Source: Alphaproteobacteria bacterium (GTDB lineage Bacteria > Pseudomonadota > Alphaproteobacteria > Micavibrionales > Micavibrionaceae). From it: DNA of 64,000 nucleotides. The notes under the pieces were generated by a model, which made no database searches, had not been told where the DNA came from, and saw only the letters and a program-made list of their open reading frames with translations. The DNA lies in assembly GCA_002690045.1 (NCBI GenBank), contig NZDE01000011.1, positions 214,582 to 278,581 of the forward strand, in the 5' to 3' direction. Every line of letters begins with the position of its first letter. The first letter of the stretch is position 1. This document shows positions 27,160 to 27,599 of the stretch, piece after piece. The translations under genes and the position numbers were made by a program.

Positions 27160-27190
27160 ATAAAAAAGGGACAAATTATGCCCCTTTTCT
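27160..27190 (-). terminator. Terminator after the EHPC-repeat gene
   Basis: Read on the minus strand, a stem AAAAGGG/CCCTTTT (27182-27188 with 27164-27170) is followed by a T-rich tract. Confidence 0.65.
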
Positions 27191-27235
27191 AAAACAAAAG
27201 CGCTATAGAGTAAACTATAGAGCTTCATAATTTTC

Positions 27236-27532
27236 TTAGTGATGTGCCTCACATGGGTGCTCAGCTTCACAAGGATGCTCTGCGCCACATGGGTGTTCTG
27301 CTTCACATGGGTGCTCTGCACCACAAGGATGCTCAGCTTCACATGGGTGAGCTGCACAAGGATGTGCTGCACAATCGTGACCTGCACACATGTGACCGTG
27401 CTCAGCCGCACATGGCGCTGCACCTTCGTGGTGCTCTGCGAATGCTGGGCCTGCCGCTACAGCTGCAATAGCTGCCGCACCAAGAACCAATGTTTTTTTA
27501 GATACAAACTTCTTCATTACTTTTGAATTCAT
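27236..27532 (-). CDS. Secreted Cys/His-rich repeat protein (EHPC repeats)
   Basis: This 98-residue protein has a Sec signal peptide (basic start, hydrophobic 14-28, cleavage likely after AGPAFA at 32) and a mature part made almost wholly of His, Cys, Glu, Ala and Pro. Cysteines fall at 41, 49, 54, 59, 64, 70, 76, 82, 88 and 94, the last six spaced exactly six residues apart in an HPC(E/G)AE repeat. This suggests periplasmic or surface metal binding. The E-x-x-C-G pattern recalls EGKCG repeats of HvfA/bufferin peptides that MNIO enzymes modify, though no such enzyme is nearby. AGAGGA and a TTGACA promoter precede it. Confidence 0.85.
   Translation of the reverse strand: MNSKVMKKFVSKKTLVLGAAAIAAVAAGPAFAEHHEGAAPCAAEHGHMCAGHDCAAHPCAAHPCEAEHPCGAEHPCEAEHPCGAEHPCEAEHPCEAHH
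27239..27358. repeat. 18-base coding tandem repeats in the EHPC protein gene
   Basis: The C-terminal coding region is built of 18-base units encoding HPCxAE, with E and G alternating at the variable position so that a 36-base higher-order period appears. The alternation of ACATGGG and ACAAGGA on the plus strand marks the units. Such repeats can change copy number by slippage. Confidence 0.8.
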
Positions 27533-27570: not shown

Positions 27571-27599
27571 TATATTGCCTGATTTTACTTTCATGTCAA
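27571..27599 (-). promoter_or_regulatory. Sigma70-like promoter for the EHPC-repeat gene
   Basis: On the minus strand TTGACA (27594-27599) and AATATA (27571-27576) are 17 bases apart, about 40 bases upstream of the ATG; a TATAGC at 19 bases is an alternative -10. Confidence 0.5.

Follow-up and report, generated by a model that had tools for sequence, protein, structure and literature searches.

The locus described here raises the question of what a bacterium does with a short, probably secreted protein built almost entirely of a few kinds of residue, and of which other protein, if any, handles it. The gene lies at 27236..27532 on the minus strand of the 64,000-nucleotide stretch of alphaproteobacterial DNA that we analysed (hereafter the window), on contig C11 of the source genome (G000). 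An earlier note, made from the letters of the window, had suggested that the product could be a metal sponge or a modified peptide precursor comparable to HvfA and the bufferins, possibly of a new class.

The Cys-repeat peptide gene and its surroundings

In the list of open reading frames the gene has an ATG start and encodes 98 amino acids. In agreement with the earlier note, residues 1-32 (27437..27532, minus strand) read by eye as a Sec-type signal peptide, with cleavage assumed after AFA. The mature part would then comprise 66 residues (15 A, 14 H, 12 E, 10 C, 8 P, 5 G, 1 M and 1 D), 89% of which are H, C, E, A or P. The ten cysteines occupy positions 41, 49, 54, 59, 64, 70, 76, 82, 88 and 94, the last six exactly six residues apart within six HPC(E/G)A(E) units (residues 62-96; 27245..27349, minus strand), and a six-Cys run of this period arose in only 14 of 200,000 shuffles of the mature sequence. 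The residue count and the shuffles bear out the composition and regularity that had been claimed, while the proposed likeness between an E-x-x-C-G pattern and EGKCG repeats proved slight, with only two units reading HPCG.

A search for homologues of the HPCxAE repeat, which the earlier note had proposed, found them in two genomes of the same genus, at 92% identity in G090 and 79% in G089. The dN/dS of the gene was 0.045 over its whole length and 0.024 over the mature part for the G000-G090 pair, and 0.089 for the G000-G089 pair. Because homologues exist in G090 and G089, dN/dS is low and the upstream region with its TTGACA is conserved, the ORF is a real coding gene. The low complexity of the sequence and the ORFs of comparable length that run antisense to it could point to a chance frame or an assembly artefact, but we consider the probability of this negligible, given the whole-gene dN/dS and a start, a promoter-like element, hairpins and neighbouring genes that are conserved across three genomes. 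The peptide matched no family in Pfam (E up to 0.1) or NCBIfam (E up to 0.5), its repeat ORF is the only one found in the source genome, and no match was found on plasmids (E up to 1e-3). AlphaFold2, supplied with a seven-sequence alignment, modelled it without a fold (mean pLDDT 42.8).

Upstream of the gene, a promoter-like element, TTGACA-17-AATATA (27571..27599, minus strand), is conserved in three species, as judged by eye from the alignment, and falls short of the hexamer rule used in the promoter scan. The next gene downstream encodes a DUF6969 protein of 261 amino acids (PF22308; 26358..27143, minus strand), which scored 230.7 bits against a Pfam cut-off of 27. Scanning, RNA folding and alignment located two hairpins between the two genes (27161..27226, minus strand), with folding z values of -5.1 in G000, -6.4 in G090 and -3.8 in G089. 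The second hairpin (27161-27191) is followed by a T run and resembles an intrinsic terminator, terminator-like sites in the region numbering two compared with 1.2 expected in shuffles. Such hairpins would permit the synthesis of much precursor and little of its partner. On the other side of the peptide gene lies a divergent serine-hydrolase-type gene (PF00144; 27625-28749, plus strand), a relative of which also adjoins the peptide gene in G090 and G089. Among the other loci included in our ORF clustering, no member of its cluster was seen. The genes scanned around the pair in the window comprise this gene and proteins without a Pfam family.

Linkage of Cys-repeat genes to DUF6969

DUF6969 was found in 7 of 104 genomes of the GTDB family and in 8 of 142 of the order. 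All eight of these DUF6969-bearing genomes have a Cys-repeat ORF upstream of DUF6969 on the same strand, at a distance of about 7-127 nt as measured from mechanically chosen starts, and in G034 there are two such ORFs in tandem. In the genus of the window, and in one member of the G034 tandem, the repeats are of the HPC type; the other ORFs have NPC-type or mixed repeats. A query with the HPC peptide matched 13 genomes of the family and missed G102, in which a Cys-repeat ORF nevertheless adjoins DUF6969. Seven of the matches (G016, G020, G028, G070, G079, G080 and G088; E 8.5e-5 to 9.9e-4), none with DUF6969, were rejected as relatives: those in G080 and G020 are SCxxK-repeat proteins (G080 scoring 21.8 bits for BufA2 against a cut-off of 60, G020 having no NCBIfam match), that in G070 is a Cys-rich lipoprotein, and the rest are unrelated proteins.

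In a sample of the class, DUF6969 was present in 90 of 385 genomes, and 40 of these loci, chosen for long contigs, were taken with flanks of up to about 8 kb. Further named loci came from the best-scoring 80 of at least 575 DUF6969-encoding stretches in GTDB representatives, some of which may be the same gene. Cys-repeat ORFs were recognized by a simple rule, at least four [NHSAEDQTG]PC units in one ORF (xPC ORF). Such an ORF was present at 29 of the best-scoring 80 loci, in 28 cases within 1.5 kb. When all ORFs of 47 loci were clustered, the Cys-repeat group, including its P460 relatives, was the commonest partner (25 loci, compared with 12 for the next clusters). Across 115 non-redundant loci, 56 xPC ORFs lay within 2 kb of DUF6969 (443 kb of sequence) and five at 2-8 kb (1,122 kb). 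Relative to DUF6969, 54 of the 56 were upstream and two downstream; 29 shared its strand and 27 ran the other way. A motif-free filter returned 67 ORFs within 2 kb and 19 at 2-8 kb, some of them visibly spurious; it gained CGAK, CGAC and CCAAC repeats. The xPC rule misses CGAK repeats in L205, CGAC repeats in L068 and L102, CCAAC repeats in L185 and CAPK repeats in Burkholderia glumae.

The association extends beyond the class. DUF6969 was present in 30 of 369 genomes of another class of the phylum, and 16 of these 30 loci, one of them (L245) already seen earlier, had an xPC ORF within flanks of 1.5 kb; this sample has no outer-flank control of its own, and the density of xPC ORFs at 2-8 kb in the 115-locus set would predict fewer than one. 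By eye, L279 and L280 add other kinds of Cys repeat, and the filter matches at L275, L294 and L295 look spurious. In a sample of the phylum, DUF6969 occurred in 12 of 349 genomes. Nine of these loci were read: L244, L245, L250 and L251 have an xPC ORF and L252 a weak one, L249 (G285) has, at 2210-2506 and close to DUF6969, a lipoprotein-like ORF rich in Cys whose repeats are of the CCAAEG type, and L246 (at a contig edge), L247 and L248 have no Cys-repeat ORF. Further pairs, with DUF6969 confirmed by Pfam, were found in Sinorhizobium meliloti, B. glumae and Skermanella, and by tblastn in S. medicae and Ciceribacter. On pSymA of S. meliloti 2011 a 124-residue xPC peptide (L263:4580-4954) precedes DUF6969; in B. 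glumae an 89-residue CAPK/CGAK peptide is followed by DUF6969 and then by MTA phosphorylase and arsenosugar glycosyltransferases; in Skermanella an NPC peptide lies downstream of DUF6969. Repeat types vary widely across the loci, with HPCEAE, NPCAAK, CGAK, CAPK and SPCGL all represented. In L284, L286, L288, L290, L292, L252, L260 and L263, a common N-terminal segment resembling 'A(I/V)DHxxHxxP' can be read by eye in the precursors adjoining DUF6969, ahead of xPC repeats that differ greatly.

We also compared the distribution of the two components among genomes. An NPC-repeat query (E up to 1e-6) matched 35 of the 385 class genomes, which span 18 GTDB families, each with at least one sampled DUF6969 member. 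DUF6969 was present in 33 of these 35 genomes compared with 90 of 385 overall (Fisher p 3e-21, kinship ignored), the exceptions being G265 and G435, so that strong NPC matches occurred in only 2 of 295 genomes lacking DUF6969. Forty of the 56 DUF6969-bearing genomes missed at this threshold, with G000 set aside, were searched again at E up to 0.001: NPC matches appeared in 12 of 40, two of them weak (G285, with an internal stop, and G266), and in none of 40 genomes without DUF6969. The dependence runs in one direction: genomes with strong NPC repeats nearly always have DUF6969, and DUF6969 is often found in their absence. In the 115-locus set an xPC ORF was found within 2 kb of DUF6969 at 49 loci and at none of the other 66, and at 17 Azospirillum loci DUF6969 stands behind Mla-type lipid transport genes, with no Cys-repeat ORF seen. 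Since 66 of the 115 loci have no xPC ORF and Azospirillum has the Mla setting, DUF6969 has other settings or substrates. The arrangement downstream of MlaE/ABC/MlaD/lipoprotein-type genes was observed in L137-L142, L145-L147, L149-L153, L155, L174, L188 and L261, the Mla-type operon being annotated in L261 and assigned by likeness in the other Azospirillum loci. From the linkage as a whole, we hold with high confidence that the pairing of precursor and DUF6969 is functional.

The DUF6969 protein and the settings of its loci

No signal peptide is seen in DUF6969, and we infer from this that it would reside in the cytosol and act before export. An alignment of 43 of 48 distinct sequences, five with over-long frames being left out, covers proteins 34-79% identical to that of the window, and the residues invariant throughout include H72, D77, D80, Q86, H90, H92, E107, H110, H112, R116, H145, N164, R165 and W166. 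In a confident AlphaFold2 model (pLDDT 90.5, pTM 0.89), the strands 85-91, 109-116 and 143-151 hold H90, H110, H112 and H145, with H92 just past the first strand, and this alternation of His along the modelled strands suggests a metal site. An hmmsearch against PDB sequences (E up to 1) found no solved relative, the best Foldseek match had an E of 0.64, and the best VIA-align match had a Z of 2.9 (rmsd 4.4, 88 aligned). These structure searches neither prove a new fold nor give an enzyme class.

All 43 members matched PF22308, which carries a Pfam title with no described function, and the 17 families listed at E up to 1 do not include the MNIO family PF05114. Profile comparison of DUF6969 with eight MNIOs by hhalign gave a probability of 0.3%, that is, no detectable likeness. 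A search of viral contigs with one protein as query, sensitive to close relatives only, found no DUF6969, and a search of PHROGs returned no match. Neither DUF6969 nor PF22308 is mentioned in the literature searched, which did not extend to subscription papers; in the same non-subscription literature the repeat strings NPCAAKNPC, CNPCAAK, CNPCNPC and EHPCEAEHPC were absent, and NPCAA occurred only in papers on subjects that were unrelated, judging by their titles.

The wider loci include several genes for metal and sulfur handling. Near the pair, mer genes were found in G091 and G236 (MerA at 512.8 and 527.6 bits against a cut-off of 454); G091 also encodes MerP and MerF over their cut-offs, a CopA-like ATPase and a rhodanese, and G139 has a MerR-type regulator below curated cut-offs nearby. 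The mer genes seen beside the Cys-repeat/DUF6969 pair (MerR, MerT, MerP, MerF and MerA) lie at L022:13-4884 (with the CopA-like ATPase), L089:8393-11302 and L032:3012-3428 (the MerR-type regulator only), and mer genes are near DUF6969 in only 2-3 of 127 loci, duplicates kept. Sulfur-transport genes of the YeeE/YedE type (PF04143, Pfam-checked in two cases) are near DUF6969 in 8 of 127 loci, and in S. meliloti an annotated YeeE/YedE gene lies directly upstream of the pair. Cys repeats are also fused to a cytochrome P460 domain, over the Pfam cut-off in L065 and L097, just under it in L082 and at 18 of 27 bits in L078. Proteins consisting of a signal peptide, NPC repeats and a P460-like domain ending in CxxCH were observed in L065, L069, L076-L079, L082, L085, L087, L094, L097 and others, often divergent from DUF6969. 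In L173 (7139-7900), L177 (7120-7884) and L245 (2220-3068), NPC repeats flank a cytochrome c-like domain next to DUF6969, the SoxA/TsdA-type assignment of which is Pfam-supported in L173 only. What these settings have in common is soft metals and sulfur, with no one substrate singled out.

ORFs resembling FGE were near DUF6969 in 51 of 127 loci (duplicates kept), and in 46 of these the ORF shares the strand of DUF6969 and lies upstream of it or overlaps it; PF03781 was checked for two, and L066:8651-9526 is an example of a secreted-looking, FGE-sulfatase-like gene. No FGE-like gene was matched in the eight genomes of the order (E up to 1e-20), so it is not a core component, and we rejected it as a required partner. 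The signal motif L[LF][STAC][STGA][TAS] was found in 28 of 62 xPC ORFs, a set with at least two spurious members, compared with 10 of 137 background signal-like ORFs, an enrichment confounded by homology among the 62; the peptide of the window has no such motif. A related form, LL(S/T)xTxxP, is common to signal peptides with different mature parts, for example in L193, L087 and L185.

Possible functions and relation to known peptide systems

We lean towards a reading in which the peptide is an exported thiol- or metal-binding product and DUF6969 its cytosolic partner, acting on the precursor before export. The two genes would form a unit. The peptide, unstructured and rich in thiolates, imidazoles and carboxylates, would bind soft transition metals or serve as a thiol pool outside the cytoplasm, and we think binding of metal or thiol by it probable. 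DUF6969, with its conserved His, Asp and Glu, would most likely be an enzyme that depends on a metal and modifies the Cys repeats, or else a factor that loads or holds the peptide. We infer export, metal binding and the action of DUF6969 on the peptide from sequence and linkage. Covalent modification of the Cys repeats is the most speculative part, and we put it forward tentatively: no fold match gives an enzyme class, and any single specificity must explain the varied repeats. A bolder version, which we rate as possible though somewhat doubtful, makes DUF6969 the founding enzyme of an MNIO-independent RiPP class, a fold-orphan cytosolic metalloprotein that would modify Cys repeats, mostly Pro-Cys, in Sec-exported precursors. 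Its products would be metal- or sulfur-handling peptides of Alphaproteobacteria, Betaproteobacteria and other Pseudomonadota, and the LL(S/T)xTxxP signal motif would be a DUF6969 recognition element in one subgroup.

We consider it unlikely that the peptide is secreted as a metal sponge without modification, alongside a DUF6969 that is co-regulated with it and handles or senses metal without ever contacting it. In favour of this reading, ten Cys, 14 His and 12 Glu within 66 residues suffice for unaided metal binding, the peptide is predicted to be disordered, heavy-metal genes are neighbours in a few loci, and the repeats differ widely among loci. Shared regulation would, however, need neither the upstream position of the precursor in 54 of 56 cases nor the near absence of strong NPC repeats from genomes without DUF6969. 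Less likely again is a sulfur or redox carrier, in which the repeats would be a periplasmic store of thiol or persulfide, or an electron-transfer appendage, instead of a metal sponge; the fusions to P460 and SoxA/TsdA-type cytochrome c domains, the YeeE/YedE genes and the rhodanese gene of G091 speak for it, but no such gene is among those scanned around the pair in the window.

The reading closest to the earlier note is that an MNIO acts on the peptide in trans, modifying its cysteines as in HvfA and the bufferins. The note was right that the window encodes no MNIO: the single PF05114 match in the genome is on contig C12. This protein is of the BufB type (357.5 bits against a cut-off of 310), and MNIOs also occur in six of the seven other DUF6969-bearing genomes of the order, with a fragment at the end of a contig in the seventh. 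Searching the genome for MNIO and DUF2063, as had been proposed, found both, but in a separate operon; at L001:185-2638 on C12 we observed a complete bufferin-type operon with a DUF2282 precursor, the BufB-type MNIO, DUF2063 and DoxX. An MNIO match was present in 16 of 21 genomes that have both DUF6969 and Cys repeats (a contig-edge fragment in G034 and a partial one in G439), and the other five, at 94-100% completeness, had none, so that MNIO is not part of the wider DUF6969/Cys-repeat system. With a DUF2282 substrate of its own for the MNIO, no EGKCG motif in the peptide and linkage to DUF6969 instead, we judge modification in trans very improbable. An MNIO as the main maturase was rejected on the grounds of its own substrate on C12, the MNIO-less genomes and the absence of likeness between DUF6969 and MNIOs. 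The suggested kinship with HvfA and the bufferins found no support, there being no Pfam or NCBIfam match either. The idea of a new class was supported in that the peptide belongs to an uncharacterised, widespread group of exported Cys-repeat proteins, whose recurrent partner, DUF6969, the note had overlooked.

Returning to the preferred reading, the recurrence of the pair in many distant Proteobacteria suggests that Cys-rich, probably metal-binding peptides are made or handled in a way not yet studied. The link to such peptides offers a first testable role for DUF6969 and a partner for the peptides. If DUF6969 does modify or load them, exported Cys-rich metal-binding peptides would be made in bacteria by no fewer than two unrelated routes, one through MNIO and one through DUF6969.

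How does the system compare with those already described? The peptide of the window has the features of the proposed group, namely a Sec-type signal (by eye), regular Cys repeats and an adjacent DUF6969. Bacterial metallothioneins are generally cytosolic. Like them and other Cys-rich sponges, the peptide is rich in Cys and His, unstructured and likely metal-binding; unlike them, it is apparently exported and paired with DUF6969, and it has no Pfam match at E up to 0.1. With the bufferins (BufA1, which is DUF2282, and BufA2, with the MNIO BufB) it shares the plan of a small Sec-exported Cys protein with a dedicated cytosolic partner, but it matches no BufA HMM and its partner has no detectable likeness to MNIO in profile comparison; a distant Cys-repeat protein in L032 reached 18.9 bits for BufA2 against a cut-off of 60. 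PMC12452194 reports a role of bufferins in copper stress and describes EGKCG repeats in the HvfA/Buf_EGKCG (oxazolin) peptides. As these are described there, they share with our peptide a signal peptide followed by regular Cys repeats, whereas the motif in the window is (E)HPC(E/G)A with period 6, with no EGKCG and no MNIO, DUF2063 or DoxX gene beside it. The same paper (PMC12452194) describes a 'CxxxxC' family with a signal peptide and regular Cys, encoded with MNIO, DUF2063 and DoxX genes; the likeness lies in the signal peptide and the regularly spaced Cys, and the difference in the mainly C-x5-C spacing of our peptide and its link to DUF6969 and not to an MNIO. The peptide-DUF6969 system resembles the bufferin/MNIO system in outline and is not a member of it.
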